DNA of 64,000 nt from Solimonas terrae (GTDB lineage: Bacteria > Pseudomonadota > Gammaproteobacteria > Nevskiales > Nevskiaceae): the NCBI RefSeq assembly GCF_011067135.1, contig NZ_JAAMOW010000006.1, forward strand, positions 62,001 through 126,000, in the 5' to 3' direction. The notes under the pieces were generated by a model. The model did no database searches. It was given only the letters and a program-made list of their open reading frames with translations, and was not told the DNA's origin. Both the position numbers and the translations under genes were made by a program. This document shows positions 35,946 to 53,008 of this stretch, in pieces (the first letter of the stretch is position 1; each line of letters opens with the position of its first letter).

Positions 35946-35950
35946 AAGCG

Positions 35951-36657: not shown

Positions 36658-36664
36658 ATACATT
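36636..36664 (+). promoter_or_regulatory. Candidate promoter of the SGNH hydrolase gene
   Basis: TTGCGA and TACATT are separated by 17 bases; the -10 element lies inside the palindrome at 36658-36670. Matches are moderate, so this is tentative. Confidence 0.3.
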
Positions 36665-36670
36665 ATGTAT
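36658..36670 (+). promoter_or_regulatory. TetR-type operator candidate, site 1 (ATACA-TTA-TGTAT)
   Basis: A perfect 13-bp palindrome, 104 bases before the SGNH hydrolase start. The same ATACA-N3-TGTAT pattern occurs before both TetR genes and the TonB-receptor operon of this cluster, so it is probably the common operator of the twin TetR regulators. Confidence 0.6.
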
Positions 36671-36774
36671 TCCATTTGCCGCGTGCATGGACGTCGACGC
36701 GTGCACCCCGCAGCGGCGATGCGCATCGCCGCCCCGTGCTTCTCAAACCCGTTTCTGACAAATCGCAAACGACC

Positions 36775-37383
36775 ATGCAAAGACTGATCGCCTTCCTGTT
36801 CGAGCGCCTGTTCCGGAAAGTCCGCCTCGCGTGGTGCAGCAGCATCGAGGCAGCTGCGGTTCCGGGCATCGGCGGGATTGCATTCGTCGGCGACAGCATC
36901 ACCCACAACGGTCGCTGGGATCTGATCTTTCCGCACGCCGCCACGCGCAACTTCGGCATCAACGGCGACCGCACCGACCAGGTGTTGAGCCGGCTGGACC
37001 CGGTGATCCGCATCGATCCGAGCAAGATCTTCGTGCTGATCGGCACCAACGACCTCGGCCAGGGTGTGGACATGGAGACCATCGTTGCCAATCTGGAGCA
37101 GATGCTCGAGAAGCTGGGGACGGCCCTGCCTGATTGCACGATCTACCTGCAGACCGTCATGCCGCGCGCCGCGAAGTTCGCGGCCAGGATCCGGGCCCTC
37201 AATGCCCGTTACGCGCAGATCGCAGAGCGGCGCGGGCTGGTCCTCGTCGATCTGTACCCGGCGTTCGACGACGGCGGCGGCAAGATGCGCAGCGAATTCA
37301 CCTACGACGATCTGCATCTGAATGGCGCCGGCTACACGCACTGGCGCGACGTGCTGGCGCCGCATGTACCGGATCGGCGCTGA
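36775..37383 (+). CDS. SGNH/GDSL-family hydrolase
   Basis: A 202-residue serine esterase. All four SGNH blocks are present: Ser in FVGDSITHNG, Gly in NFGINGDRTDQVL, Asn in LIGTNDLGQG, and Asp/His in DDLHLNGAGY. This family includes acetylxylan and other carbohydrate deacetylases as well as platelet-activating-factor-type esterases. The first 25 residues are hydrophobic and basic and may be a signal-anchor. The gene converges on a beta-mannosidase gene with a six-base gap, and carries operator site 1, so a role in deacylating the locus's glycan is likely (inference). Confidence 0.87.
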   Translation: MQRLIAFLFERLFRKVRLAWCSSIEAAAVPGIGGIAFVGDSITHNGRWDLIFPHAATRNFGINGDRTDQVLSRLDPVIRIDPSKIFVLIGTNDLGQGVDMETIVANLEQMLEKLGTALPDCTIYLQTVMPRAAKFAARIRALNARYAQIAERRGLVLVDLYPAFDDGGGKMRSEFTYDDLHLNGAGYTHWRDVLAPHVPDRR

Positions 37384-37389
37384 GAACGC

Positions 37390-39933
37390 TCAGTCGGCGG
37401 CGCGCGGGAGCTGTGTTTCGTTCCAGCAGGTGACGGCAAGTTCGCACGGCGATATCGGTCCGTGCGGATCGGTCACGATCACGTCCCGCACTTCGCCGGC
37501 TCGCAGATCGAAGTAGTTGTCGCTGTACCGCATCCCGGGGCGCTCGACGACAAGCTGGACAAACAACAGATAGGCGTCGGCGGCAAGCCGGACATGCAGG
37601 CTGCAGGGTCCGGACTGCACGACGTCGAGCCGGGGTTTCGCGCCGGCAGCAAGCTGAAGCGACTTGATCGGCGCCAGCATCAGGCGGTTCGCCGGGAACA
37701 ATCCGTCCGGCGAGTGCACACACAGGGCGCGGTCGCGCGCGCCGGTCGGCGCGTGACCGCGCCAGACCACGGTGCTGCAGTTCGCCGGCACGTCGACCTG
37801 CAGCGACACGGACGCTTCGCAAGCGCCCTGCAGGCGAACCAAATCGATCTGCACCGCCCCCGACACGGCGGACAAGCCGTCGTTGACGATCCACAGCTCC
37901 GCGGTGTCGTCGGCCAGCGGCTTGAACGAGGCGAGCACGGGCGCGTACGCACGCGCGACGGCGTGGAATCCGGCCTTGCCGGTGCCGTCGTAGTCGATCA
38001 GGCTCCAGCTCACGCAGGGCCAGCAGTCGTTGTACTGCCAGATCAGCGTGCCGGAGCAATGCGGTTTGCGCCGACGGAAATGTTCGAGCCCGAACTTCAG
38101 TCCTTCGGCCTGCGTCAGCATCGTGAAGTCGACGTATTGCTGCAGCGTCGCCGGCATACCGACAAGCGGCTCCATCAGCGCATCGATCTTGTTTTTCGGA
38201 TCGTCCTTGATCCGGTTGAGGAAGGCCGCGCTGTCCAGGCGCAGGTCGTCTGCATCCAGCCAGCGTCGCAACGTGGTCATTGCCGGTCCGGCGTGGATGC
38301 CGAATTCGCTGATGAAGCGCCCGCTGTTCTCCGCGTAGCGTCGGTAGTCGACACCGGAGGGGCTGCGATCGATGCGCCCGGCAAAGTCCCGGTCCGGCAC
38401 CGGCGGCAGACCGTGCCAGACGGTCCAGTCGTGCACATCGCCGGCACGCATGCTGTTGGCACTCGGCCCGCCACTCGGGCTGCCCGGCCAGTACGCCGTA
38501 TGCGGATCAAGCTCGGCGAGCGCTTCGGGGAGCAGTCGGTCGTAGTACAGCGCGCCGGGCAGCGGCGCAACACGGCCGCTGATGTGATCCGCCATGAACT
38601 GGAACAGCTGACACTCATTGTTGCCGCACCACAGCGCCAGCGACGGGTGGTGGCGCAGACGTCGTACCTGGTCACGCACTTCCTGTTGCACGCTTGCAAC
38701 GAAGCGCGGATCGTCTTCGGGATAGGCGGCGCAGGCGAACATGAAATCCTGCCAGACCAGCAGCCCCAGTTCGTCGCAGAGCGAGTAGAACGCATCGTGT
38801 TCGTAGATGCCACCACCCCAGACGCGCAGCATGTTCATGTTGGCGCGCAGCGCGGATTCCAGCAGCTCGCGATAACGGGGCGGCCCGAGCGTACCGACGA
38901 AGGAGTCGGCCGGAATCCAGTTCGCGCCGCGCGCGAAGATCGGCACGCCGTTCAGCACGAAACGGAAGAAATCGGTACCGGCTTCCTGCGCGTCGGCTGA
39001 TGTATCGAGCGTCAGGGTGCGGATGCCGACCGCGCGCTGCTGAACGTCGAGCCGCGTGTCGCCGTCGAAGAGTTCGGCCTTCAGCGTGTAGAGCGGCTGC
39101 GCACCGAGATCGCTCGTCCACCATCGCTGTGGCGCGGTCACGATCAGAACCGCCTCTGTTGCCTGAACAGGGTCCAGCGTCCGGCGTGCCGCCAGCGCAC
39201 CGTCGGGCGCCAGCAGCTGGAGTTCGCAGCGCAGCACGGGAGATCCCGGCGCGCATGAAAGCTCGAAGCCGGCGCTGACCTCGGCCAGCGCCTCGCTCGC
39301 GGCCAGCGTGGCAAAGCTCAGCGCCTCGATCCGCGCCTTGCGCCAGCGCTCGATCCGTACCGCCTTCCAGACACCGACCGTCGGCAGGTTCGGCCCCCAA
39401 TCCCATCCCCAGCCGAACTGGGCCTTGCGCATGAGATTGCGCTTCATGTCCGCCATGCCGGTGAACAGCTGGCCCCAGTTGTTGAGCTCGCGCGCCGGAA
39501 CATCGGCCGGCGAGAAGACCACGGTCAACACATTGCGGCCGTCCTTCGACAGATGGCGGCCGACCTCGAAGCGGTAGCGGCGGAACATGTTGTCGCAACA
39601 CCCCAGCCGTTCGCCGTTGAGGTGAATCGTCGCGAAGGTATCGAGACCGTCGAACACGAGTTCGACCTGTTCGCCCGGCTCCGCTCGCGGACAGGTGAAG
39701 GTGCTGCGCCACCACCACTCGCGCGTCGCGACCCACGCCGCGTCGCATTCCTGGTTTCCGCGGAACGGGTCGGCGAGCCGGCCGACGGCCATCAGGGCCG
39801 CGTGCGTGTCGCCCGGCGCGGAGGCGGTGACCCAGCCGGATTCGGTCGTCGGCGCGGATATCGCGCACGAGGCAGCACCGGCGCCCGGATCGAAATCCCT
39901 GATCCGCCACTGCTCGAGGGCTTCGGTCTGCAT
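37390..39933 (-). CDS. Beta-mannosidase, glycoside hydrolase family 2 (first copy)
   Basis: An 847-residue GH2 enzyme that removes terminal beta-D-mannose. Order: N-terminal sugar-binding domain with EWWWRSTF, the hallmark GWGWDWGPNLPTVG (about residue 170), immunoglobulin-like domain, and TIM barrel with RVWGGGIYEHDAFY. The acid/base is Glu440 in WCGNNE and the nucleophile Glu543 in SEFGIHAG; GTLIWQYNDCWP follows. No signal peptide, so it acts in the cytoplasm on imported oligosaccharides. It is 30 bases downstream of a TetR gene and shares its transcript. The region around GDVHDWTVWHGLPP differs from the usual GDxHYYDY type. It is a close paralogue of the gene at 43296. Exo-glucosaminidase activity is less likely. 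Confidence 0.9.
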   Translation of the reverse strand: MQTEALEQWRIRDFDPGAGAASCAISAPTTESGWVTASAPGDTHAALMAVGRLADPFRGNQECDAAWVATREWWWRSTFTCPRAEPGEQVELVFDGLDTFATIHLNGERLGCCDNMFRRYRFEVGRHLSKDGRNVLTVVFSPADVPARELNNWGQLFTGMADMKRNLMRKAQFGWGWDWGPNLPTVGVWKAVRIERWRKARIEALSFATLAASEALAEVSAGFELSCAPGSPVLRCELQLLAPDGALAARRTLDPVQATEAVLIVTAPQRWWTSDLGAQPLYTLKAELFDGDTRLDVQQRAVGIRTLTLDTSADAQEAGTDFFRFVLNGVPIFARGANWIPADSFVGTLGPPRYRELLESALRANMNMLRVWGGGIYEHDAFYSLCDELGLLVWQDFMFACAAYPEDDPRFVASVQQEVRDQVRRLRHHPSLALWCGNNECQLFQFMADHISGRVAPLPGALYYDRLLPEALAELDPHTAYWPGSPSGGPSANSMRAGDVHDWTVWHGLPPVPDRDFAGRIDRSPSGVDYRRYAENSGRFISEFGIHAGPAMTTLRRWLDADDLRLDSAAFLNRIKDDPKNKIDALMEPLVGMPATLQQYVDFTMLTQAEGLKFGLEHFRRRKPHCSGTLIWQYNDCWPCVSWSLIDYDGTGKAGFHAVARAYAPVLASFKPLADDTAELWIVNDGLSAVSGAVQIDLVRLQGACEASVSLQVDVPANCSTVVWRGHAPTGARDRALCVHSPDGLFPANRLMLAPIKSLQLAAGAKPRLDVVQSGPCSLHVRLAADAYLLFVQLVVERPGMRYSDNYFDLRAGEVRDVIVTDPHGPISPCELAVTCWNETQLPRAAD

Positions 39934-39963
39934 GCGATGGCGGCGTCGTCGGCGCAGGCCGCC

Positions 39964-40596
39964 TCAGGCCTTGCGGGGCCTGAAGGCGATGCCGTTGAAC
40001 AAGGCGACGAGATCGCCGGCCTTGACGATGTGTCGCCGGGTCTGGAATTCCACCGTCGACAGACCGTTGAGATGTGCGACGACATGCGAAGCGATGATCT
40101 CGGGCGTGGCGCGCAGACGATCGCCGGGATCGAGCCTGGACGCGCGGATCGCGTCGGCGAAATCCTTGATGATCTCGTCGGCCCCCCTGCGCAGCTTTTC
40201 GGCAATGTCGGGACGACTCAGGGCGATCACCTGCACGACGTAGAAGAGACTTTCTGCTCCGTGGCCTGCGTCGCTGTGGGTCGACACCAGCCTGGCGAGC
40301 TGCTCGAGATTGCGGCGCAAGGAAACGTTCGGCCGGATCACGCCGAGCATCGTCTGCTTCAGCTCCGTGACGAACGTGCGGCTCAGTTCGTAATAGAGAT
40401 TCTGCTTGTCGCCGAACAACGAATTGATCGGCATGCGCGAAATGCCGGCCTGCTCGGCCACGCCTTCCATGGTGGCCGACTCGTAGCCCTTTTCGCAGAA
40501 GACGATCCAGGCCGCCTCCAGAATCTGCGCAGTGCGGACCTCCCGCTGCTGTGCGCGATTGAGACGGGTCCGCTTCTTGATGGCGCTCTTGAACAT
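39964..40596 (-). CDS. TetR-family regulator 1 of the mannoside locus
   Basis: A 210-residue repressor with an N-terminal helix-turn-helix (about residues 20-65): the recognition region reads GISRMPINSLFGDKQNLYY. The C-terminal ligand domain ends near FNGIAFRPRKA. It is a close paralogue of the regulator at 52319, with nearly the same recognition helix. It starts the operon with the first beta-mannosidase and is divergent from the receptor operon. A near-copy of the shared palindrome lies 53 bases before its start. I chose the ATG at 40596, since the eleven upstream codons lack similarity to the paralogue. Sugar loci usually use LacI, so a TetR pair is unusual. Confidence 0.9.
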   Translation of the reverse strand: MFKSAIKKRTRLNRAQQREVRTAQILEAAWIVFCEKGYESATMEGVAEQAGISRMPINSLFGDKQNLYYELSRTFVTELKQTMLGVIRPNVSLRRNLEQLARLVSTHSDAGHGAESLFYVVQVIALSRPDIAEKLRRGADEIIKDFADAIRASRLDPGDRLRATPEIIASHVVAHLNGLSTVEFQTRRHIVKAGDLVALFNGIAFRPRKA

Positions 40597-40647
40597 GCTG
40601 CTCGAAACCGGTCGCGATGGTCGGCGCACTATAGGTCACGAAAAAAC

Positions 40648-40682
40648 AATACACAATGAATAAATATCGGATTCGTTTGTAT
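40648..40682. repeat. Operator-containing direct repeat, copy A, with imperfect palindrome ATACA-CAA-TGAAT
   Basis: These 35 bases match 40732-40766 at about 28 of 35 positions, in the same orientation, 84 bases apart. The first 14 bases hold a version of the shared palindrome (40649-40661) with one mismatch. It is nearest the TetR 1 gene and probably its operator. Confidence 0.6.
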
Positions 40683-40697
40683 TTCGCCTTGCCGGTA

Positions 40698-40727
40698 TTG
40701 CGTGCCGAGACAAACATGCGCTATAGA
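40698..40727 (+). promoter_or_regulatory. Candidate promoter of the receptor/beta-mannosidase operon
   Basis: TTGCGT and TATAGA are separated by 18 bases. Transcription would begin near 40734, inside the perfect palindrome, so a bound TetR would block initiation. Confidence 0.4.
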
Positions 40728-40731
40728 TATA

Positions 40732-40766
40732 AATACAAAATGTATAAATACCGATTTCGTTTTTTT
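40732..40766. repeat. Operator-containing direct repeat, copy B, with perfect palindrome ATACA-AAA-TGTAT
   Basis: Second copy of the 35-base repeat. Its palindrome at 40733-40745 is a perfect match to the shared pattern and sits 59 bases before the receptor start, just downstream of the predicted -10 box. Confidence 0.6.
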
Positions 40767-40803
40767 GCGACGGATCGGCATGAGCGGCAGGCGAGGAGAA
40801 GCC

Positions 40804-43296
40804 ATGAAGTCGATCGTCGGGGTACTGTTGCGTGTGGGCGGTGCGATTGCGCTGCTGTCGTCGAGCGCGGTCGCGTGGGCCGGCCCGGATCCGGCCGGCT
40901 CTGCCGGCGATGCCTCGAGCGCGGAAGCGATGCCGTCGGCCGACCCCGCGGCGCCCGTCGGATCGCCGACGTCCGCAGCCCCGACGGCGGTGATCGCGGT
41001 GCCCGGGCCACAGACCCAGACCGCGGAAGCGCCGCAAGCCGCAGCCGCGTCGGCGGTGACGCCCTCGGGCAGCGAAATTCCGGAAGTCATCGTGACGGCG
41101 AACTTTCGTGCCGAGAATATCCAGGACGTCAGCGGCAGCACCCAGAGCTTCAGCGGTGCCGATCTCGACAAGTCCGGCGCCGCCGGCATGCAGGACTACC
41201 TGTTGCAGGTGCCGAGCGTCTCCCTGCAGCCATCGGGCAACGGCATGATGAAGATCGCGATGCGCGGCGTCTCGAACATCAACGCCACCGATCTCGGCTT
41301 CAATGACGGCTCGCCGACGGTCGGCGTCTACCTCAACGACGTCGCCATCCAGGGGTCGGGCGTTTTTCCAGATTTGCGCATCTTCGATCTCGACCGCATC
41401 GAAGTCCTGAAGGGGCCGCAGGGTACGCTGTACGGCGAAGGGTCGATGGGCGGCGCGATCAAGATGGTCACCGTGGCGCCGGACCCGAACAACTGGGCGT
41501 TTCGCACCGACGGCATGTATTCGTGGACTGCGGGCGGCGCACCGAACCACGAGCTTCGCGCCGCGGTCAACGTCCCGCTGATCAACGATACCCTCGGCGC
41601 CCGTATCGTCGGCACGACCCGCCACGAAGGCGGCTTCGTCGACTACACCGACCTCGATCGTCCGGACGCGAACGTCGACCGCTCGGACTCGCTGCGCAGC
41701 ATCCTGAGCTGGAGCCCCCTCGACGGCCTCGACCTCGGTTACATGTTTCTCTACAACTACGACGACCGCGACCAGTTCCCGGTGGTGGACGTCGGCAGCC
41801 AGAAGGAGATGACGAATTCCCAGCCCGAGAACCAGTACGCCCTCACCCGCTTCACCATCAATTCGCTGACCGCCAAGGTCGAGCTTCCGTTCGCGAGCCT
41901 GGTCTCGGTGTCGTCGTTCTTCCAGACTTTCCGCGACGACCAGCGCAAAGTGCCGTTCGTGCAGACCCTGATCGACCAGGAGTTCGGCATGCTGAACCTG
42001 ACGCCGCCGACCCTGTTCGGCAATTCGCCGACACGCATCGTCACCGACCTGCATTCGTTTTCGCAGGAGTTGCGCCTGGTATCGAGCGGTGAGCACACGG
42101 TCGACTGGATTGCCGGCGCGTTTTTCCGCACTCGCAAGCAGGATTTCGAGCTGTGGGAATACGAGAACAGCATTCCCGACGTCAGCGCGCTCGACAATCT
42201 GCTCGCGCTGACCGGACTCGAGGGCCTGAACCTGCTGTCGCCGCTGCAGGAGCATGGCGTCGGCTCCGAGAAGTTCCGGCAGATCGCGCTGTACGGCGAG
42301 GCGACCTGGAACCTGATCCCGTCGGTCCTGACCATCACCGGCGGCCTGCGCTTCTATCGCGAAGTGTTCGACTTTGCCGACGACACGCAGTACTACGGCA
42401 TCCAGGCCCTGCTGATCGGCCTCAGTCCGCAGAACATCGACCTGAGCGACGGCAGCATCAGGACCGGTCTCGACACCACGCTGATCGCCAGCGGCGTGCT
42501 GCCCAAGCTGTCCATCGGCTGGCACGTCACCGACGATCAGCTGCTCTATTTCACCGTCAGCCGCGGCTTTCGTTCCGGCATGGCGAACACCGGCGCGGGC
42601 TCGGACAACGGGCCGCCCGTGGTACAGCCGGATACGGTCTGGAACCGCGAGCTCGGGTACAAGGGAACGTGGCGCGAGCAGGGCCTGATCACCAACCTGT
42701 CGCTGTTCGACATTGCCTGGGACCAGCTGCAGGGCACGCTGGAAGGCAATGCCAAGTTCGGCCCGGTGTCGGTACCGTTCCCCTACGTGGCCAATGCCGG
42801 CAACGCGAGGATTCTCGGCGCCGAAGCGAACGTCACCTGGGCCGCGACCTCATTCATGATCCTGTCGCTCAACGGCGGTTACAACTACGGCGTACTCACC
42901 GATCCGAAGGACGGCAGCAATGCCGTACCGCACAGCCTCATACCCAACACACCGCGCTATACAGGCAGCGGCACGGTCACCGTGAACTACCCTTTGCCGG
43001 ATGATCTGGCGCTCGATTTCTCGACCACCTACACCTATACCGGCAAGCAGCTCACGACGTTTCGCGTGCGTACCACCTCGACGCTGGGCAAGGTCGAAGA
43101 CAGCGACGGCCTGCCGATCGATGCCTACGGCCTGTTGAAGGTCTCGCTCGGACTGAGCCGCGGCACGTTTCACGCACAGCTGTTCTGCGACAACCTGAGC
43201 AACCGTCACGCGATCATCGGCATCTCGGCGCCCATTCCGCAGTACACCATCGTGACGCCACGCGTCGTCGGGCTTCGCGCGAGCTACGACTTCTGA
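40804..43296 (+). CDS. TonB-dependent receptor of the mannoside locus
   Basis: An 830-residue outer-membrane receptor with a signal peptide (ending near VAWAGP), an Ala/Pro/Ser-rich linker to about residue 90, the TonB box EVIVTAN, a plug (IAMRGVSNINATD, VLKGPQGTLYGEGSMGGAIK) and a barrel ending in phenylalanine (SYDF). The GAGGAG site five bases upstream fixes the ATG. Its stop overlaps the start of the second beta-mannosidase (TGATG), which strongly implies that it imports the oligosaccharide that enzyme cuts. No SusD-like partner is present, as normal for proteobacterial carbohydrate receptors. Confidence 0.92.
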   Translation: MKSIVGVLLRVGGAIALLSSSAVAWAGPDPAGSAGDASSAEAMPSADPAAPVGSPTSAAPTAVIAVPGPQTQTAEAPQAAAASAVTPSGSEIPEVIVTANFRAENIQDVSGSTQSFSGADLDKSGAAGMQDYLLQVPSVSLQPSGNGMMKIAMRGVSNINATDLGFNDGSPTVGVYLNDVAIQGSGVFPDLRIFDLDRIEVLKGPQGTLYGEGSMGGAIKMVTVAPDPNNWAFRTDGMYSWTAGGAPNHELRAAVNVPLINDTLGARIVGTTRHEGGFVDYTDLDRPDANVDRSDSLRSILSWSPLDGLDLGYMFLYNYDDRDQFPVVDVGSQKEMTNSQPENQYALTRFTINSLTAKVELPFASLVSVSSFFQTFRDDQRKVPFVQTLIDQEFGMLNLTPPTLFGNSPTRIVTDLHSFSQELRLVSSGEHTVDWIAGAFFRTRKQDFELWEYENSIPDVSALDNLLALTGLEGLNLLSPLQEHGVGSEKFRQIALYGEATWNLIPSVLTITGGLRFYREVFDFADDTQYYGIQALLIGLSPQNIDLSDGSIRTGLDTTLIASGVLPKLSIGWHVTDDQLLYFTVSRGFRSGMANTGAGSDNGPPVVQPDTVWNRELGYKGTWREQGLITNLSLFDIAWDQLQGTLEGNAKFGPVSVPFPYVANAGNARILGAEANVTWAATSFMILSLNGGYNYGVLTDPKDGSNAVPHSLIPNTPRYTGSGTVTVNYPLPDDLALDFSTTYTYTGKQLTTFRVRTTSTLGKVEDSDGLPIDAYGLLKVSLGLSRGTFHAQLFCDNLSNRHAIIGISAPIPQYTIVTPRVVGLRASYDF

Positions 43297-45818
43297 TGAC
43301 CGCGCTCCCGCTGGGTGAATGGGAAATCCTCGATCTGCCTCCCGGCGCCGGCGTGTGCGCGGAGCTGGCCGGGCGCCCTGACGGCTGGATCCGCTGCCCG
43401 GCGCCGGGCGACACCTACCTCGCGCTGCACGAGGCCGGCCGCCTCGCGCATCCGCTGGCCGATGAGAACGAGGTGGACTGCGCCTGGGTCAAGGACCGGG
43501 AGTGGTGGTGGCGCACGACGTTCGCCGCAGCGCCGGCCGCCGCGAACGAACGCGTGCTGCTCGATTTCGCGGGTCTCGATACCTATGCCGACATCTGGCT
43601 CGACGGCGAGCGGCTCGGCAGCAGCGACAACATGTTCGTTGCGGCACGCTTCGACGTCGGCCGGCATCTTCGCGACGGCGCGCAACATGTGCTGCTCGTG
43701 CGTTTCACGCCGCCGGCCGTGGCGGCAGCCGACAAGTCGATGCCGTCCTGGCCGATTGCCGATCCGATCCGGGAATCGAAGCGGAACTTTCATCGCAAGG
43801 CACAGTTCGGCTGGGGCTGGGACTGGGGCCCGCAGCTGCCCACCGTCGGCATCTGGCAAGCGGCAAGGCTGATCCGCCAGCGCATCGCCGCCATCGACGA
43901 CGTCGGCTTTTCCACCATCGCCGCGGATGCCGATGCCGCGGAAGTCGCTGTCACGGTGTCGCTCGATGTCTTCGCCGCGGGCGCCGCAGCGGTGACCGTG
44001 CACGCCAGGCTCGTCGCGCCCGATGGCAACTGCGTCGCCGAGGCCAGGCTCGACGACGGCGATCGACATGCGACGCTTCACGTCGATCGGCCGCAGCTGT
44101 GGTGGACCCCGGAGCTTGGCGCGTCGGTGCTGCATCGCCTGGAAGTGACGGCGTGGTGCGGCGACGCCCTTGTCGATTCGAGCGTTCTGCAGGTCGGCAT
44201 CCGCCGCATCGAACTCGACACCTCGCCGGACCCGGGCGAGCCGGGATGCGACTTCTTCCGCTTCGTGCTGAACGGCGTCCCGCTGTTCGCGCGCGGCACC
44301 AACTGGATTCCGGCGAGTTCGTTCGTCGGCGCGGTCGGTGCCGCGGATTACACGGCACGGTTGCAGTCCGTCGTCGACGCCAACATGAACATGGTGCGCG
44401 TCTGGGGCGGCGGCGTCTACGAGGGCGACGCGTTCTACGAGACCTGCGACCGGCTCGGCCTGCTGGTCTGGCAGGACTTCATGTTTGCCAGCGCGCCCTA
44501 CCCCGATCACGACGAGGATTTCGTTCGCAAGGTTCGCGAGGAGGTGGCGCACCAGGTCCGCCGCCTGCGCCATCACGCCAGCCTTGCCCTGTGGTGCGGT
44601 AACAACGAATGCCAGTGCGCGCACGAGCTGCTGGACTACATGGCCGGAACCACGACGCCCTACGCTGGCGAGTCGCTGTTCGCCGAGATCATTCCCTCGA
44701 TCCTGCAGCGGCTCGACCCGGCGACGCCGTACTGGCCGAGCAGTCCCTATGGCGGCCCGATGCTCAACAGCATGCGCAGCGGCGACGTCCACAACTGGAC
44801 GGTCTGGCACGGCCTGCCGCCGATCCCGGACGACACGCCGGTGGGCGAGTTCAAGCGATCGCCCGCCACGGTGCAGTACTCGCGCTACGCCGAAGACCGC
44901 GCGCGCTTCGTCAGCGAGTTCGGCATCCAGGCGAGCCCGGCGCGCAGCACGCTGGCGCGATGGGTTGCACCCGAACGCCTGTCACTCGACAGCCCCGCGT
45001 TCCTCAATCGCATCAAGGATCACCCCAAGGACAAGATCAACGCGATGCTGCTGCCGATGACCGGCCTGCCGGCCGATCTCGACCAGTACGTCGAATTCAC
45101 CCAGCTCGTGCAGGCGGAGGGGCTGAAGTTCGGCATCGAGCACTATCGCCGGCGCAAGCCGCATTGCTCGGGCACCCTGATCTGGCAGCACAACGACTGC
45201 TGGCCCGGTGTCAGCTGGAGCCTGATCGACCACGACGGCGTGCGAAAGGCGAGTTGGTATTACGTTGCCCGCGCCTATGCGCCGCTGATGGCGGCGTTCA
45301 GGCCGCTTGACGGCGGCGAGGTCGAGCTGTGGGTGACCAACGACACGCTTGGCGCGGTGCAGGTCGAAGCGACCGTATCGCTGCTGCGGCTCGACGGCAT
45401 ACCGCTGTGGCGGCGCGAGATCGCCGCCACGGTAGCCGGCAACGCCGCGGGCATGGTCTGGCGCATCGACCGTGCGACGCTCGCCGCGTCGGCCGAGCAT
45501 GTTCTGGTCGTGCGCAGTCCGCAGTTCCCCGCGAACCGCCTGCTGTTCGCACCGTTCAAGAACCTTGCGTTGTCGCCGGCCGATCCGACGCTCCGGCTGC
45601 GACCGCTCGCCGGCGGCGGCATCGAAGCCGTGCTCGAGGGCCGCGGCTACCATCATTTCGTGCACCTGCTCGTGCAGGACGCAAGCGCCCGCTTCAGCGA
45701 CAACTATTTCGATCTGTGCGCCGGCGAGACGCGAACCATCGAGATCACCGCGCAGCACCCCTTGCACCTCGACGACGTCTGCCTGCGCGCATTCCACCCC
45801 AAGGCAGGGGGACCATGA
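43296..45818 (+). CDS. Beta-mannosidase, glycoside hydrolase family 2 (second copy)
   Basis: An 840-residue paralogue of the enzyme encoded at 37390, with the same order of domains: EWWWRTTF, GWGWDWGPQLPTVG, RVWGGGVYEGDAFY, acid/base Glu438 in WCGNNE, nucleophile Glu541 in SEFGIQAS, and GTLIWQHNDCWP. It has no signal peptide, so it is cytoplasmic. It starts inside the receptor stop (TGATG) and ends overlapping the symporter start (ATGA). The two copies probably differ in linkage or chain length preference, but this cannot be read from the sequence. Confidence 0.9.
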   Translation: MTALPLGEWEILDLPPGAGVCAELAGRPDGWIRCPAPGDTYLALHEAGRLAHPLADENEVDCAWVKDREWWWRTTFAAAPAAANERVLLDFAGLDTYADIWLDGERLGSSDNMFVAARFDVGRHLRDGAQHVLLVRFTPPAVAAADKSMPSWPIADPIRESKRNFHRKAQFGWGWDWGPQLPTVGIWQAARLIRQRIAAIDDVGFSTIAADADAAEVAVTVSLDVFAAGAAAVTVHARLVAPDGNCVAEARLDDGDRHATLHVDRPQLWWTPELGASVLHRLEVTAWCGDALVDSSVLQVGIRRIELDTSPDPGEPGCDFFRFVLNGVPLFARGTNWIPASSFVGAVGAADYTARLQSVVDANMNMVRVWGGGVYEGDAFYETCDRLGLLVWQDFMFASAPYPDHDEDFVRKVREEVAHQVRRLRHHASLALWCGNNECQCAHELLDYMAGTTTPYAGESLFAEIIPSILQRLDPATPYWPSSPYGGPMLNSMRSGDVHNWTVWHGLPPIPDDTPVGEFKRSPATVQYSRYAEDRARFVSEFGIQASPARSTLARWVAPERLSLDSPAFLNRIKDHPKDKINAMLLPMTGLPADLDQYVEFTQLVQAEGLKFGIEHYRRRKPHCSGTLIWQHNDCWPGVSWSLIDHDGVRKASWYYVARAYAPLMAAFRPLDGGEVELWVTNDTLGAVQVEATVSLLRLDGIPLWRREIAATVAGNAAGMVWRIDRATLAASAEHVLVVRSPQFPANRLLFAPFKNLALSPADPTLRLRPLAGGGIEAVLEGRGYHHFVHLLVQDASARFSDNYFDLCAGETRTIEITAQHPLHLDDVCLRAFHPKAGGP

Positions 45819-47242
45819 GCGACGAGATCGCTGCGAGCCGCACCCGGATTTCCGTGCCCGTCAAGCTCGCCTACGGGCTGGGCTCGGTCGCGTTCGGCAT
45901 CAAGGATCATGGCTTCAGTGCACTGCTGATGCTGTACTACAACCAGGTCATCGGCCTGCCCGCGTCGTGGGTCGGCGCGGCGATCATGGTGGCAATGATC
46001 GTCGATGCCGTCGTCGACCCCCTGATCGGACACTGGTCGGACTCGTTTCGCTCGCGCTGGGGACGGCGCCATCCGTTCATGTACGCCTCCGCGCTTCCGC
46101 TTTCACTGGCCTATCTGCTGCTCTGGTCGCCGCCGTCCGTGGACCAGGGCATGCAGTTCGCCTACCTCGTGGTCATGTCCATCCTCGTGCGCATCTCGAT
46201 CAGCTTCTTCGAGATCCCCAACACGGCGTTGATGAACGAATTCACCAAGGACTACGACGAGCGCACGAGTCTGGCGACCTATCGCACAATGCTCTATGCG
46301 ATCGGCATGGTCGGCATGGGCGTCGTGACGTTCAAGCTGCTGCTGCGCCCGGATGTCGCCGGCACCGTCGGCCAGCTCAATGCCGCCGGCTACATCGGCT
46401 ACAGCCATGTTGCCGCGGCCCTCATGCTTGCCTGCGTGATGCTGTCGAGCTGGGGCAGCCACCGGCACGTCGCACGCGTGGCATCGGACATCCCGGCGCA
46501 GGAACGCGTCGGCCTCATCGGCTTGTGGCGGGGCCTCGGCGCGATCCTGCTCGATCGCGTCTATTCCAGCGTGCTGCTCTGCTGCTTCTTCTTTGCCGTC
46601 GCCACCGGCATGAACACCGCGCTCGGCACTTACTTCAACACCTACTTCTGGCGCATGAGTGCCGACCAGATGGGCACGCTGGCCGCTGCCGCATTCGTCG
46701 GCATGCTGCTGGCGCCGCCGACGGCGATGCTGGCACGGCGCTTCGGCAAGAAGAAGGTCGCGATCGGCCTGCTGCTGGTGGCCCTCGCGGCCTGCACCGG
46801 CCCGATCGCCATCGTGCTGGTGCTGGGACTGCAGCCGAGCGGAAGCCGCCTGATGGGCTGGCTGATCGTGCAGAGCGTCTTCAGCGTGCAGTGCATCCTC
46901 GCGGGCATGATCCTGCTGACCTCGATGGTGGCGGACGTCGGCGAGCATCTGCAGCTGAAGACCGGCCGCCGCATGGAGGGCCTGATGTTCGCGGCGCTGA
47001 TCATGCTGAACAAGGCGGTTTCCGGGATGGGCGTGTTCACCGCCGGTCTGATGCTTTCCGCCATCCATTTTCCGGAGAAGGCACGACCAGGCGAGGTGGC
47101 GGTTCCTCTCATCCACCAGCTCGGCTGGATCTATATCGTCAGCCTGTCGGTACTCTGGCTGCTCGCGGTCCTGTGCCTGCGCTTCTATCCGATCACGCGC
47201 GAAGCGCACCTGCGCATGGTGGAGCGGCTTGAGAATTCCTGA
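45815..47242 (+). CDS. GPH-family sugar:cation symporter (MFS_2/MelB-like)
   Basis: A 475-residue inner-membrane carrier with about 12 helices. Family marks include KLAYGLGSVAFGIKD at the start, DAVVDPLIGHWSDSFRSRWGR, FFEIPNTALMNEFTKDYDERT and the late DVGEHLQLKTGRRMEGL. Members import glycosides with Na+ or H+. It follows the receptor and beta-mannosidase with overlap, so it is the likely inner-membrane step for the same oligosaccharide. The ATG at 45815 is preferred over the longer open frame because it sits in the coupled ATGA and has a GGGGG purine run before it. Confidence 0.9.
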   Translation: MSDEIAASRTRISVPVKLAYGLGSVAFGIKDHGFSALLMLYYNQVIGLPASWVGAAIMVAMIVDAVVDPLIGHWSDSFRSRWGRRHPFMYASALPLSLAYLLLWSPPSVDQGMQFAYLVVMSILVRISISFFEIPNTALMNEFTKDYDERTSLATYRTMLYAIGMVGMGVVTFKLLLRPDVAGTVGQLNAAGYIGYSHVAAALMLACVMLSSWGSHRHVARVASDIPAQERVGLIGLWRGLGAILLDRVYSSVLLCCFFFAVATGMNTALGTYFNTYFWRMSADQMGTLAAAAFVGMLLAPPTAMLARRFGKKKVAIGLLLVALAACTGPIAIVLVLGLQPSGSRLMGWLIVQSVFSVQCILAGMILLTSMVADVGEHLQLKTGRRMEGLMFAALIMLNKAVSGMGVFTAGLMLSAIHFPEKARPGEVAVPLIHQLGWIYIVSLSVLWLLAVLCLRFYPITREAHLRMVERLENS

Positions 47243-48836
47243 GCCGACATCGCTGCACAGCGCCGCGCCGTTCACCCTCGCACTCGACGCGGCGGCCTCG
47301 CGACTCGACGGCATCGAACGATTTCCGGCCGCCGAGCTTGGCAGCGCCGGCATCGTGCGGCTGAGCGTGGCGACGCCGACGCGTCGCACCCGCGGGCGTC
47401 GCCGCCGTTACCCGCTGCTGATCCTGCTGGACGGCGAAGCGATCTTCGGCTCGGCCGTCGAGATGTCGCGCCTGATGGCGCAAACCCGGGAGCTGCACGA
47501 ATGCATCGTCCTTGCGATCGACTGCGCCGCTGACGAACGCGAAACCGCTCGGCGCGTGCACGAGCTCCTGCGCTGGAGCGGTGAACGCTATCGCATCGCG
47601 GGAAACGACGTCGCGCTGTTCGGCGCCGGGCGTGCCGGCGGGCATGCGATCCACGCGCTGCACCACGTCGCCGGACTGGCGGCGGCGATCGCATCGGCGC
47701 CGGCGCATTGCGAATCCGCCGAGCAACAACCGGCGGCCGACGCGCAGACGCGGCGCCTGTTGTTGTACGCGCCCATCGGCTCGTCATGCCGTGCCTTGAT
47801 CGACGGCATGAACGCCGAGGTGGCAATCAGCCATGCGGCGCCCGGCTGGCCGGTGGCGGACCTGGTGCGCGGCCTGCGCACGCTGTGGAGCACCGGCGTG
47901 CAGGGCGGCAAAGGCTACGAGGTCTTCGGCCGGGCCTGGTTGCGCCCGGTGCTGCTCGCCGCGTCCGCGCCCCTGAGCCTCGCGCGGAAATGGCAGGGTC
48001 GGCCGCCGAGCGCCGGCAACCCGCACCGTATCCGCTCACGATCACTGGAGCGCGACTTCGAACTGCTCGCCGTACTGCCGGAGCCGCGCGCCGTCGGCCA
48101 CAGGCATGCGCTTCCGGCGGTGCTCGTGCTCGACGCCAATCTCGAATTCTCCACCGCCGCGGAAGCGGCGCACGCGCTGGCGGCCGCCGGCGTCAGCGAC
48201 GATGCCGTGGTCGTCGGCATCGGGGTGCCGCGCAGCGAAAGCACCGCCGAGTTCGCGTTTCGCCGCTTCGAGGAATTTTCGCCGCCGTTGGACGGCTATG
48301 ACTTCAGCGACGGCATGGGCCGCATCATGCGCGGGCTGTTCGCGCTGCGCGGGCAGGACGCACGCGAACGCCTGGGCAAGGCACCGCTGCTCTATCGCTT
48401 CCTCTGCGACGAGGTGCTGCCGCTGCTGCATCGGCACTATTGCATCGACCCGCAACGCATCAGCCTGCTCGGCCATTCCGCCGGCGGCGCGTTCAGCTGC
48501 TATGCGCTGCTGCAGCAGGACTCGCCATTCTCGGGGTATGCCGGCATCAGTCCGGGCATCGGCATGAGCGGTTTCTGGCTGCGCCGGCAGCTCGCCGCCG
48601 GCGCCGCGCCGGCGCCGAGCGCGCGCACGATTGTCCTGTCCATCGGCGAGGAAGAGGACGAGGGCGAGTCGCAGGGCTCGGGCATTTCGCAAACCGCGGA
48701 GTTCGCGCGGCAGCTGCGCGCGCGGGCGCGCGCCGAGATCAGCTATCACTGCTACGACGGCGAATCCCATGCCAGCACCTACCCTCGCGCCGTGACGCAG
48801 GCACTGCGCAAGCTGCTGGGAAGAGCGGGCGACTGA
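47229..48836 (+). CDS. Two-domain alpha/beta-hydrolase esterase (Fes/esterase D type), first domain inactive
   Basis: A 535-residue protein made of two esterase D-like (enterochelin-esterase-type) domains in tandem. The second domain has the nucleophile elbow LGHSAGGAF (Ser417) and a catalytic His near SHASTYP. The first domain has FGAGRAGGHA at the same place, with Arg135 replacing Ser, so it is probably inactive and may bind ligand. The start is TTG, overlapping the symporter gene by 14 bases. No signal peptide, so it acts in the cytoplasm. It is the last gene of the receptor operon and could remove acyl groups (acetyl or phenolic) from imported sugar; the true substrate is unknown. Confidence 0.8.
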   Translation: MRIPEPTSLHSAAPFTLALDAAASRLDGIERFPAAELGSAGIVRLSVATPTRRTRGRRRRYPLLILLDGEAIFGSAVEMSRLMAQTRELHECIVLAIDCAADERETARRVHELLRWSGERYRIAGNDVALFGAGRAGGHAIHALHHVAGLAAAIASAPAHCESAEQQPAADAQTRRLLLYAPIGSSCRALIDGMNAEVAISHAAPGWPVADLVRGLRTLWSTGVQGGKGYEVFGRAWLRPVLLAASAPLSLARKWQGRPPSAGNPHRIRSRSLERDFELLAVLPEPRAVGHRHALPAVLVLDANLEFSTAAEAAHALAAAGVSDDAVVVGIGVPRSESTAEFAFRRFEEFSPPLDGYDFSDGMGRIMRGLFALRGQDARERLGKAPLLYRFLCDEVLPLLHRHYCIDPQRISLLGHSAGGAFSCYALLQQDSPFSGYAGISPGIGMSGFWLRRQLAAGAAPAPSARTIVLSIGEEEDEGESQGSGISQTAEFARQLRARARAEISYHCYDGESHASTYPRAVTQALRKLLGRAGD

Positions 48837-48852
48837 AGGCCGGCCGACGCCC

Positions 48853-50409
48853 TCAGGGCTGCGGCGCGATCTTGACGAAGCTGTCGGCGCGATCGAAGAG
48901 ATCCGAACGGATCGAGAACAGGTCGAGCACGGTATCGAAAACATCGGGCTGGTGATATTCGACACGATCGACGATGTCGATCGGAACCGAGGCCTTGACG
49001 ATGAGCGGAATGTGCGCCTGCTCTTCCGGCAGCGACACGCCGGGCGGCATGCCATGGAACATCACGCCGTTCTCCATCAGCGACTCGCCGTGGTCCGACA
49101 GATACAGAAAGACGTATGGCGCGCCGGAGCGGTCGAGCGTGTGGATGATTTCGCCGACGACATGATCGACGTAGAGAATGGTGTTGTCGTAGGAGTTGTA
49201 GATCTGCGCCAGGCTGCACTTGTCCGCGATGTCGGCGTCATTGCAGGTCGGTTCGAAACGCTGGTATTCCGGCGGAATGCGGTCGCGGTAGACCGGTCCG
49301 TGACTGCCGCCGCCCAGATGCAGGACCACGAACGAGTATCCCGAGCGATACGTCTGCAGCCTGTTCGCCAGCATGGGGATGACGTCCTCGTCGTAGCAGT
49401 GCCCGCCATGTCCGCAGTGATCGACGGGCGTTTCGCCCACCGACGCACAGTTGTCGTACAGGGTGTAGTTGACGTAGCAGGCCGTCGGGATTCCGGCCTT
49501 CGAGACGATCTCGGGCAGCGTCACACGGTTCTTGCGCAATATCTCCGGCAAGGCGTAGAGCGTCGAGCCGATGCGCGCCACGCCGTTCAGAACATGCAGT
49601 CCGTTCACCTGCCGCAGCGTCGGCGTCGTGTCGTTCCGCTGATAGCCGTAGATGCCGAAATTCTTCTGTCGCGACGACTCGCCGATGGCGAGAACAACCA
49701 CGAGATTGCCCGGCGACGCGACGGTGGCCGAGAACGTCGGCGGCGCGCGATGAAAGCTCAGGTACGGCGCCAGCGCCTTGCCGGCGGCGCCGATCGCGCC
49801 TGACACCACGTTCACCGGAACCAGCGAATAGACGATGTACTTCCTGGAGACATTGCCGGCACGCTGGATGGGATTGCGGTTCAGGTAGAGGCAGGCGGTC
49901 GCCAGCGGCAGACTGATGCCGACGATCATCAGCGACGCGATCAGGTAGCGGCCGGAAGACGGAAAGCCGATGTCCGCGCGCAGCACGATCAACACCGGCA
50001 CGAACACCAGAAACACCGCATAGGGAATCATCTGCGGCGACAACAGCTGCCCGACCTCGGTGCGGTCCGTGTGCCACACGTTCTGGACCATCGAGCTGTC
50101 GATCGCGACGTTGTACTTGGCGATGAAGTAGGTCGCGACGGCACTGGCGACCGTCAGCACGATCGCCACCGGCTTGATCGTCCAGCGGTGCGCCAGCAGG
50201 GTGAAGAATGCCGTGAACAGGCACAGTCCGGCCAGCAGGTAGGCCGCCAGCGGCAGATAGTCCACACCGCTCCTCGCCGGGAACCACCTGGCGATCTTGT
50301 CGATGTTGATCGCGTTGCAGCCGACGTAAAGCGTCGCCGGATAGACGACGCAGAAGGCGGCATGCGAAATGTTGTACTTGCGGTAGAGGCGCGTGGCCAT
50401 GCTTGTCAT
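48853..50409 (-). CDS. Phosphoethanolamine transferase-like membrane enzyme (EptA family)
   Basis: A 518-residue protein with five N-terminal membrane helices (to about residue 200) and a periplasmic alkaline-phosphatase-fold domain. Family signatures are VLAIGESSRQKNFGIYGYQR, YNSYDNTILYVDHVV, LYLSDHGESL and FHGMP. The nucleophile, threonine in GETAR of EptA/MCR, is here serine (Ser245 in GESSR). Such enzymes decorate lipid A or other glycans with phosphoethanolamine, and the EptA branch gives polymyxin resistance. The AGGAA site favours the ATG at 50409. It lies 15 bases downstream of a PHP-domain gene and is cotranscribed; both are opposite to the esterase. Confidence 0.85.
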   Translation of the reverse strand: MTSMATRLYRKYNISHAAFCVVYPATLYVGCNAINIDKIARWFPARSGVDYLPLAAYLLAGLCLFTAFFTLLAHRWTIKPVAIVLTVASAVATYFIAKYNVAIDSSMVQNVWHTDRTEVGQLLSPQMIPYAVFLVFVPVLIVLRADIGFPSSGRYLIASLMIVGISLPLATACLYLNRNPIQRAGNVSRKYIVYSLVPVNVVSGAIGAAGKALAPYLSFHRAPPTFSATVASPGNLVVVLAIGESSRQKNFGIYGYQRNDTTPTLRQVNGLHVLNGVARIGSTLYALPEILRKNRVTLPEIVSKAGIPTACYVNYTLYDNCASVGETPVDHCGHGGHCYDEDVIPMLANRLQTYRSGYSFVVLHLGGGSHGPVYRDRIPPEYQRFEPTCNDADIADKCSLAQIYNSYDNTILYVDHVVGEIIHTLDRSGAPYVFLYLSDHGESLMENGVMFHGMPPGVSLPEEQAHIPLIVKASVPIDIVDRVEYHQPDVFDTVLDLFSIRSDLFDRADSFVKIAPQP

Positions 50410-50424
50410 CTGCGGTTCCTGCCG

Positions 50425-51843
50425 TCACTGCTGTGGCGCTGGCAATACGTCACCGGCAGACGATGGTTTCGCCGCCGGCCATGCATCCTTTTCCGCACCG
50501 CGGCGCCGGCGCCACCAGAGTCCGCGCAGCAGGGCCAGCCCCCAGACGTAGCTGGCCCAGGAGAATCGCTCCGCCGCGCTCAGCGACGCGTCCAGGTTCC
50601 AGAGCATCACCGGCACGGTGGCAATGGTCTGCCAGCCGCTCAGGCTTCCGGCCGGTGGACGCAAGGCCACCACGCTTGTCGCCTGCCTGCCGTCGCGGTG
50701 CAACTTGTCTTCGATGGCGCGCGCCAGTTCCGGCGGACGCATGCCCTGCCAGCCCGGCAAGCTCATCAGCGTCCACGCCGCTGCGGTCCGACCCCAGCCG
50801 TGATTGTCGGACGCCGCCACCAGCGCAATGTTCATCGTGTCCGCCCATGCCATCAGCGCGTCATGGTACTGCCGTGACTGGCCGAGACCCCGGGGACTGG
50901 CATCGCTGATTTCGATGGCCGTCAATCCGGGGATGTCCGGCGGCAGCCGGCTCCGAAGCTCCCGGACGGACTCCGGAACGGTGTAGATCAGGGTCGCGGC
51001 ACGATGATCGGCGGCGGCGATCGCGGCAAGCGCCGTGCGGTCCAGCTGGCCGCCGCGGAGCGCCGACGCGTAAGTCGACTGCGGCCCCAGCGCGATCACA
51101 CGCGTGTGTCCGATGCCTGCTTCCATCGCGCTGAGCAGGACCGTGCCGCCGGCGCCCGCAGGCGTTTGCCGATCGGCATCCTTGATGGCGTTCCAGCTTG
51201 CGTGGTCGGAGACATAGGCCGCATTGAACCCCGCTGCGGCATGCCATGCCCGGTTGTGTCCGAGGTCGAAGCCCGGCCGGCCGTCGTGCGAGGCGCTGGT
51301 ATGGCTATGGAAGTCGATCTTCAGAACGTCGGGCGCGTCGACCGCGAGCGCCAGCATCGGCCGTGGTGCCAGAGCGCCGGCGAAGTAGGCGAGCGCAACG
51401 GCCAGCGCGGTGATCGCCGCCGGGCGCCGGGCATGGCGCCAAACGGACATCCGGTGCTGCCGCCGGGCAGCGAACAGTGCCCGGAGCAGGATGCCGGCCA
51501 GAAGGGTCGCGCACAGCGCCAGATGCTGCGGCAGCGTCAGCAGCGACACGGTATCGAGCAGCCGGCAAACCGGGTCGAGAACCAGGTACGCGGTCGGCAG
51601 CACCAGATGAACGCCGGCGCCCACCACAGTCGATGCATCGAGACGTTCGAGCGGGACACGGGTGTGCAGGGCGCCGACGAGAAGCAGAGCGCTGACGGCA
51701 GTCGGGACGAGCAGCCCCTGAAGGAACGTCCCCTGCACCCGCAACCGCTGGTCCGGGACCTCATCGTCGGCACTGCGCGCCGCATTCGGCAGGACGATGT
51801 CAGGGCGTGCGGCGGACGAATCCGCCGAGCCGGGGCCGACCAT
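50425..51843 (-). CDS. Membrane-anchored PHP-domain phosphohydrolase
   Basis: About 472 residues: three or four predicted helices in the first 200, then a PHP domain with DFHSHTSASHDG, the metal-binding YVSDHASWN and SDNHGWGRT, and a C-terminal hydrophobic stretch near WASYVWGLALLRGLWWRRR. PHP enzymes hydrolyse phosphoesters with two or three metals. The catalytic domain follows the helices and probably faces the periplasm. The pairing with an EptA-like gene suggests a role in phosphate-decorated glycan or lipid turnover (inference). The start is uncertain: ATG at 51843 has no good ribosome site and the frame is open to 52014. Confidence 0.7.
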   Translation of the reverse strand: MVGPGSADSSAARPDIVLPNAARSADDEVPDQRLRVQGTFLQGLLVPTAVSALLLVGALHTRVPLERLDASTVVGAGVHLVLPTAYLVLDPVCRLLDTVSLLTLPQHLALCATLLAGILLRALFAARRQHRMSVWRHARRPAAITALAVALAYFAGALAPRPMLALAVDAPDVLKIDFHSHTSASHDGRPGFDLGHNRAWHAAAGFNAAYVSDHASWNAIKDADRQTPAGAGGTVLLSAMEAGIGHTRVIALGPQSTYASALRGGQLDRTALAAIAAADHRAATLIYTVPESVRELRSRLPPDIPGLTAIEISDASPRGLGQSRQYHDALMAWADTMNIALVAASDNHGWGRTAAAWTLMSLPGWQGMRPPELARAIEDKLHRDGRQATSVVALRPPAGSLSGWQTIATVPVMLWNLDASLSAAERFSWASYVWGLALLRGLWWRRRRGAEKDAWPAAKPSSAGDVLPAPQQ

Positions 51844-52318
51844 GAGCAGCGGCCGGTGCGCACCCCGTGCGAATCTTCGTATGGCCACGATCGGGGGAAT
51901 GAACAGTAGACGACGGCAGTCGATGGAAGGGCGCGTTCCGCCGTCGCCGGCGTGACACCCCTGCGCCGCGGCAGCAGCCGCGAGAACCGCAGGTCGACGC
52001 ACGGTAGCGGGCAATACTTAGGGAATACTTATGGCGGCGCCGAAACGCCGCAGTCGACTCCGCACGAGGATCACCGCCTGGGTGCGCCGGGCATTGCCGT
52101 CGACCGACGCGCTGCCCCACGGGCTGGCGGCGAAGGGGTTCGCCGGCGCGCAAGATGTTCTCGGCGCACGCGCGGTTGGCACGCGCGCCGGGAGCCACGC
52201 CGGTCCTCGACGGCCCGAGGCGGCCGACGACGTCGATCTTGCGGAACGGCAGCGATGGACGGTCGTTCGGCCATCGGCCGCCGTCGCGGCACTCGCGGGT
52301 CGACCGACAAGGCGTCGG
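51844..52318. other. Gene-free stretch between the PHP gene and TetR 2
   Basis: I see no supported gene. The part to 52014 could encode an N-terminal extension of the PHP protein in the same frame. The remainder (52015-52318) is GC-rich and has short open frames on both strands without recognisable features. The PHP/EptA promoter probably lies here. Confidence 0.4.
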
Positions 52319-52996
52319 CTAGGGATCGGCTCGTGAAGACCGCTGCGGCTTGAATGCGGCCGCCAGGAAGATGTCGGCGACATCGCGCTGCTTGGCGAAC
52401 GACTTGCCGGTCTGAAAACCGACGGTGGACATGCCATTGAGGTGCGCAATGATGTGCGAGGCGATCACTTCCGGCGTCGCGCGCAGGCGGTCACCCTTGT
52501 CGAGTGCCGAGCTGCGCACGATGTCGGCGAAATCCGCGAGCACCTCGTTCGCCCGCTGTTTCAGACGCTCGAAGATGTCCGGCCGGCTCAGGGCGATGGT
52601 CTGCACGACGAAGAACAGGCCTTCCGGCGCCAGCGTGCTGGCCCTGGGCGGCGTCGGCGCCGAAACCGCGGTCGCGGCCAGCTGCTCCAGCTTTTCGCGC
52701 AGCGTCGCCTGCGGACGCAGCGGACTGCGCAAGGCCATGCTCAGATCATCGATGAACTTGCACCAGAGCGCGAAGTAGAGATTCTGCTTGTCGCCGAACA
52801 GCGAGTAGACCGGCATGCGCGAAACCCCGGCATACGCGGCGACGTCGTCGATCGTCGTCGCCTCGTAACCCTTCTCGCAGTAAACCGCCCAGGCGGCTTC
52901 GAGCAGCTGCCGCGTTCGCGCCTCCCGCTGTTCCGCACGGTTCAGACGCGGCCGTTCCCGCTTCCTCGCATTTGCCTTGAATGTAGGCTGATTCAT
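52319..52996 (-). CDS. TetR-family regulator 2
   Basis: A 225-residue TetR repressor, paralogue of the regulator at 39964. The DNA-binding segments align almost residue for residue: LNRAEQREARTRQLLEAAW and YCEKGYEATTIDDVA, with the recognition helix GVSRMPVYSLFGDKQNLYF against GISRMPINSLFGDKQNLYY. C-terminal segments such as RATPEVIASHIIAHLNGMSTV also match, so both may sense related ligands. Its ATG lies at the edge of a 15-bp palindrome that matches the shared operator, which predicts tight autoregulation. Divergent from nothing; the next gene upstream, GH106, runs in the same direction with a 175-base gap. Confidence 0.9.
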   Translation of the reverse strand: MNQPTFKANARKRERPRLNRAEQREARTRQLLEAAWAVYCEKGYEATTIDDVAAYAGVSRMPVYSLFGDKQNLYFALWCKFIDDLSMALRSPLRPQATLREKLEQLAATAVSAPTPPRASTLAPEGLFFVVQTIALSRPDIFERLKQRANEVLADFADIVRSSALDKGDRLRATPEVIASHIIAHLNGMSTVGFQTGKSFAKQRDVADIFLAAAFKPQRSSRADP

Positions 52997-53008
52997 ACAA
53001 ATTGTATG
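52994..53008. promoter_or_regulatory. TetR-type operator candidate over the TetR 2 start codon (CATACAA-A-TTGTATG)
   Basis: A perfect 15-bp palindrome containing ATACA-AAT-TGTAT. The TetR 2 start codon is its outer three bases on the minus strand. TACAAT within it could be the -10 box of a leaderless transcript. Confidence 0.6.

Follow-up and report, generated by a model that had tools for sequence, protein, structure and literature searches.

The TetR/AcrR repressors (PF00440) carry an N-terminal helix-turn-helix (HTH), and members of the TetR family are known to bind DNA either as a single dimer or as a pair of dimers, according to the available part of PMC4150764. Two regulators of this kind, TetR1 and TetR2, are encoded in a 64,000-bp stretch of the genome of Solimonas terrae, referred to here as the window, and four palindromic sites (dyads) matching ATACANNNTGTAT lie beside them or their neighbouring genes. 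The two proteins belong to a discrete clade and the dyads are, judging from the sequence comparisons presented below, very probably its operators. Both proteins score above the curated cut-off for the TetR_N HTH and, like the known repressors, the clade has predicted operator dyads at its own promoter and at that of a divergent neighbour; unlike them, neither TetR1 nor TetR2 reaches the cut-off of any NCBIfam model.

Several described systems invite comparison. As in the two-dimer class of QacR and CprB, in so far as it is covered by the same part of PMC4150764, the close spacing of dyads would allow two dimers on one operator region, but in the clade the 13-bp dyads are separate and are repeated every 17 bp, and the window sites look single. 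The Xanthomonas sux locus, as described in the available part of PMC1790865, likewise brings together a receptor, an inner-membrane sugar carrier, a hydrolase or similar enzyme and a local regulator; that regulator is the LacI-type SuxR, whereas here it is TetR-type and has a siderophore-esterase-like partner. The clustering of a TonB receptor, a glycosidase, an inner-membrane sugar carrier and a regulator in the window is the gene set of a carbohydrate-utilisation locus. Among the literature matches listed, none dealt, by title or the start of the abstract, with the clade or with a TetR, TonB receptor and esterase system. Two further papers, one in which TetR P39K is treated as a non-binding mutant (PMC6570905) and one on an IclR-type regulator (PMC13273656), have no bearing on the clade in the parts available.

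Distribution of the palindromic sites

A scan of the window with ATACANNNTGTAT, allowing at most one mismatch, recovered exactly the four sites of the original prediction, three of them perfect and the one at 40649 being the sole match with a mismatch (Table 1). Shuffled windows gave a mean of 0.16 such matches and none of 100 reached four, while at two mismatches the count (eight, with 2.9 expected) was near background. The sites at 40649 and 40733 are held in copies of a direct repeat that lie 84 bp apart, one near each divergent gene, and they begin 52 bp and 136 bp, respectively, from the likely TetR1 start at 40596.

Instead of many random copies outside promoters, the whole genome (4,420,114 bases in 20 contigs) yielded only four perfect copies, three within the window, and all four are intergenic and located at loci of clade TetRs; the reversed control pattern gave none. 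The fourth copy, at C13:368353, lies in front of a third TetR paralogue (C13:367680-368276) and also before a sugar-type major facilitator superfamily (MFS) carrier. Three of the four fall at most 250 bp upstream of the coding or homology start of a clade TetR and, under uniform placement, the chance of such an arrangement is about 1e-10, a post hoc figure. Ten further copies appear at one mismatch, against four in all for the reversed control. Three of these are intergenic at clade loci (40649, C11:48273 before TetR4, and C13:363429 before a receptor near TetR3), six lie inside predicted open reading frames (ORFs) and one is intergenic elsewhere.

Twelve relatives lacking a clade TetR carry eight perfect copies together, or 0.67 each, and five of the eight are in predicted ORFs. 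Among the five genomes that have a clade TetR the numbers are four in S. terrae, one in G040 (at its TetR), none in G049 and G050, and three in G056, where one copy precedes a receptor gene within a TetR cluster.

These background figures bear on a narrower interpretation, in which each TetR controls itself and its direct neighbour only, the match at 36658 is due to chance, and neither of TetR1 and TetR2 reads the other's sites. The candidacy of 36658 as an operator derives from its sequence and its proximity to the hydrolase gene only, and this counts against the wider interpretation, as does the negative result of the consensus promoter scan there; perfect copies also occur at the background just given. 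At that background, however, a 36-kb stretch should hold only about 0.005 perfect copies, and the helices of TetR1 and TetR2 are both of the SRMP type with the same site class. We consider the narrower interpretation rather unlikely, if a serious contender.

A palindrome-rich stretch around ATACACACTGTAT was also seen in G047, which has no clade TetR, at L062 1481-1533, some 190 bp past a TetR gene that is of a different type.

A discrete TetR clade with conserved upstream dyads

A search of the S. terrae genome with P0001 returned five members, including itself, at E values of 2.6e-41 or better, followed by a gap to 4e-6. Thirteen clade members, which align end to end, occur in five of 85 genomes of the order, S. 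terrae included (the family sample comprised 58 genomes), and in a profile search they were set apart by a gap from 1.6e-89 to 1.4e-19. No further member was detected at E 1e-30 in samples of the class (369 genomes) and the phylum (398), both including S. terrae and drawn evenly from larger groups, with the best seven to eight candidates per genome being scored. A peptide-pattern search for named relatives gave two distant Vibrio TetRs only, and a plasmid search for relatives seven weak ones only. The nearest solved chains by sequence are varied TetR members (best E 2.5e-14). AlphaFold2 produced all-helical models for the two window proteins with a confidence score (pLDDT) below 50 from residue 75 on, and the DNA-binding domain alone is usable.

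Perfect dyads with 5-bp arms and a 3-bp spacer are present in 10 of the 13 TetR upstream regions of 250 bp (shuffle mean 3.5, maximum 9), and this spacer occurs in more regions than any other among the 13 compared, spacer 1 giving seven and spacer 9 six. The degenerate core WACA-N3-TGTW, which was derived from the clade sites themselves, is complete (8/8) upstream of 9 of 11 non-redundant clade TetRs, with a shuffle mean of 0.14 and a maximum of two in 300; L035 and L038 were counted as redundant with L034 and L037, here and in the 17-bp test below. The full core is found in none of 12 upstream regions of non-clade TetRs, seven from S. terrae and five from other genomes of the order, each extending 250 bp from the point where the homology match begins, so that part of it may be coding. 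An operator common to both window regulators, as first proposed, is thus strongly supported at the sequence level by paralogues and relatives. The accompanying idea of a local regulon is too narrow for the genome, where the same operator class precedes four TetR paralogues.

A second dyad often lies exactly 17 bp from the best one. At this lag, which was first spotted by eye, the summed score was 59 compared with a null of 33.6 (standard deviation 3.7; highest of 100 values, 46), the remaining lags between 13 and 39 gave 27-46, and a partner dyad scoring at least 6 of 8 was present in 7 of 11 regions. The tandem suggests that, in many relatives, more than one dimer may be bound per region.

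Pairing of recognition helix and site

The recognition helices ISRMPINSLFGDKQ and VSRMPVYSLFGDKQ of TetR1 and TetR2 are nearly identical, as had been stated, and the site class of the clade changes with the helix. Four members carry SRKP rather than SRMP and are paired with GAACA-N3-TGTTC or something close to it. For SRMP..S proteins, with ATACA-type half-sites, the outer base is A in 12 of 12 cases and the second base T in 11 of 12; for SRKP.YT proteins, with GAACA half-sites, they are G (8/8) and A (7/8), in a tally that omits L039 and includes the near-duplicates L035 and L038. The lone SRMPVYT protein pairs with AAACA, and the SRYPVYY protein that has a clear dyad pairs with ATACA. In 17 genomes the exact tandem GAACN5GTTC-N4-GAACN5GTTC, with no mismatch allowed, has just three occurrences, one per genome in G000, G049 and G050 and all of them at SRKP TetRs.

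The helix corresponds to residues 54-61 in the model and, within it, residue 55 alone separates the outer base and residue 59 alone the second base, when each TetR is given a label by hand according to its best dyad (L039 as ATACA from a weak site; L017 and L036, with unequal half-sites, by one half-site each). Elsewhere in the HTH, residues 20, 31, 36 and 49 match residue 55 for the outer base and residue 45, in helix 2, matches residue 59 for the second, and still more columns outside the HTH separate the site bases equally well. In the tree the SRKP proteins form one clade (100/99), with the SRMPVYT protein outside it, and 6 of 10 inner branches are poorly resolved. Since the SRKP proteins are one clade, the Met to Lys difference may be a single event, and with this topology and the poor resolution descent and contact are not fully separable. 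The Thr of L033, outside the SRKP clade, is the only second instance for the second base.

With these reservations we tentatively propose, as a possibility that we do not yet favour outright, a two-residue, two-base code in which residue 55 (Met or Tyr versus Lys) would set the outer base as A or G and residue 59 (Ser or Tyr versus Thr) the second base as T or A. The code would split the S. terrae paralogues into four ATACA-type regulators, which may read each other's sites, and one insulated GAACA regulator, the SRKP paralogue at C13:306738, within a family that would travel with a TonB receptor and a siderophore-esterase-like enzyme to import ester-linked glycoconjugates.

We take residue 55 to be the counterpart of P39 in Tn10 TetR. 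In an engineered Tn10 TetR with the changes V36F, E37A and P39K operator specificity was switched, to tetO-4C5G, and a lysine at this presumed counterpart is part of that switch; unlike the clade proteins, this is a laboratory mutant with three changes and a different operator register (PMC6515661, available part).

Evidence for and against operator function

The dyads are very probably operators because the core is conserved, helix and site match, and the exact tandem is found at SRKP TetRs only. That they serve this discrete clade of TetR-family regulators, acting as proposed below at own and neighbour promoters, we hold with high, though not full, confidence, and the assignment of the regulator is very likely right.

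A number of observations weigh against this conclusion. Two of the perfect ATACA copies in G056 are away from its TetR loci, and single GAACANNNTGTTC copies are not enriched with the TetR (4-12 in the five genomes that have it, 6-21 in the twelve that do not). Spacer 9 yields 13 dyads in total and spacer 3 only 12, in 6 versus 10 regions, and in two of the ten spacer-3 regions (L034 and L039) the perfect dyad is another sequence. On the core score there is no clear dyad before the TetR of L039 (6/8), and L034 and L035 reach 7/8. A good 17-bp partner is missing at the window sites and at L019 and L039. At one mismatch the GAACA tandem also occurs twice away from SRKP TetRs (G029 and G056 C19), and it misses the SRKP TetR of G056. 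Finally, a consensus promoter scan of seven intergenic regions was strong in L029 and L077 only and weak in L075 (9/12), with no promoter in L078 or in any of the three regions from the window. The numbers of single GAACANNNTGTTC copies across whole genomes were dropped as a line of support, being equally high in genomes without the TetR.

Another explanation is that the dyads are sites of a different regulator, or plain AT-rich promoter elements, that stand before these genes by chance. AT-rich promoter DNA does hold the sites, some of which overlap -10-like sequence, and G056 has an intergenic perfect copy that is not at a clade TetR. Neither a different regulator nor promoter composition fits well with a full core upstream of most clade TetRs and none of the non-clade ones, with a site class that tracks the helix type of the TetR, or with the exact GAACA tandem at SRKP TetRs only, and we judge this explanation very improbable. 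A random AT-rich element as such was rejected in view of the placement at clade loci, the same difference in the core and the location of the tandem.

Promoters and a proposed mechanism

The receptor upstream regions in L029, from S. terrae, and in L077 contain TTGACA-16-TATTAT promoters that are overlapped or directly followed by dyads, which is the geometry of a steric repressor site. Activation would be the alternative to repression, and the activator FasR is in fact the best NCBIfam match of both window TetRs, far below cut-off; however, in both strong-promoter regions the dyads lie across the -10 or the start, the position of a repressor site, and FasR-like activators are quite unlikely.

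Under repression, a regulator dimer would most likely bind dyads at the promoter of its own gene and, for the majority of clusters, also at that of the divergent TonB receptor operon, and transcription would be blocked until the C-terminal domain bound a product formed by uptake or breakdown of the imported substrate. TetR1 would control itself and one GH2 enzyme leftward (37390..39933), which begins 30 bp downstream of TetR1 and is probably in its operon, and the receptor, GH2 enzyme, symporter and esterase genes rightward. TetR2 would control itself, using the same site class, and the SGNH hydrolase may be a further target of TetR1 or TetR2.

If a -10 element falls inside the TetR2 dyad (52994-53007), the TetR2 transcript would be leaderless.

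Genes of the locus and their conserved partners

The genes and sites of the window are summarised in Table 1.

Table 1. Genes, dyads and repeat in the S. terrae window (window coordinates).
Feature	Position	Strand	Remarks
SGNH/GDSL hydrolase	36775..37383	+	PF13472
GH2 beta-mannosidase-like protein	37390..39933	-	Glyco_hydro_2_N2, Mannosidase_ig and Ig_mannosidase domains
TetR1	39964..40596	-	PF00440; clade member; recognition helix around SRMPINSLF
TonB-dependent receptor	40804..43296	+	PF00593, PF07715; divergent from TetR1
Second GH2 beta-mannosidase-like protein	43296..45818	+	
GPH-type MFS sugar symporter	45815..47242	+	PF13347; TIGR00792 below cut-off
Two-domain esterase related to siderophore esterases	47229..48836	+	PF00756; co-occurs with the TetR clade
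TetR2	52319..52996	-	PF00440; clade member; recognition helix around SRMPVYSLF
Perfect dyad ATACATTATGTAT	36658..36670		Upstream of SGNH hydrolase; ends 104 bp before ATG at 36775
One-mismatch dyad ATACACAATGAAT	40649..40661		TetR1 side of divergent intergenic region
Perfect dyad ATACAAAATGTAT	40733..40745		Receptor side; ends 58 bp before receptor ATG at 40804
Perfect dyad ATACAAATTGTAT	52995..53007		Overlaps TetR2 start codon
Imperfect 30-bp direct repeat, left copy	40649..40678		Partner at 40733-40762; 25/30 bases identical

The reading of the locus as one for glycan use stands in part. Glycosidases and sugar enzymes are present but vary, and the usual partners are a TonB receptor and the two-domain esterase, both Pfam-confirmed beside 10 of the 13 clade TetRs; the exceptions are TetR2, with the window esterase 3.5 kb away, L019 and L039. 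Variable partners include GDSL and alpha/beta hydrolases, mannitol dehydrogenase, a pfkB-type sugar kinase, FAD- or FMN-linked dehydrogenases of the hydroxy-acid type and E1 subunits of a 2-oxo-acid (2-oxoisovalerate-type) dehydrogenase. The dehydrogenases and the pfkB kinase, carried by the clusters at L027, L074, L075 and L078, suggest as substrate a 2-hydroxy acid ester-linked to a sugar or polyol.

The two-domain esterase (47229-48836; loci L097-L107) is found in exactly the same five of 85 genomes as the TetR clade, a co-occurrence whose chance would be about 3e-8 among independent genomes, although related genomes are not independent. Ten of its 11 copies lie beside a clade TetR-receptor pair and the remaining one is separated from its TetR by 6.0 kb. 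Among solved structures the siderophore esterases are closest to it, and it resembles BES, PfeE, the TAFC esterase and IroE in its second domain, which carries the serine nucleophile motif of the GHSAGG type. It differs from them in having an extra N-terminal domain, without the motif, and in its linkage to sugar or hydroxy-acid enzymes.

Some other genes of the region were noted in passing. GH106-type genes are located near clade TetRs in the window (53172-56381) and in G056 (L075 3387-6773). An EptA-like phosphoethanolamine transferase (48853-50400), with NCBIfam matches below their cut-offs, is two genes downstream of TetR2, and two small adjoining genes at 35586-36265 look toxin-antitoxin-like by eye, with a Pfam match for neither.

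Implications

The type of repressor is ordinary and the type of system is known; the interesting part is the paired divergence of helix and operator in nature. The results supply predicted operators and, by locus, predicted targets for a TetR clade that no NCBIfam model matches at its cut-off, and they mark out a module of TetR, TonB receptor and esterase. They also provide a natural set of paralogous repressors in which helix and operator differ together, and in which cross-talk and the rewiring of specificity are open to study by gel shifts.

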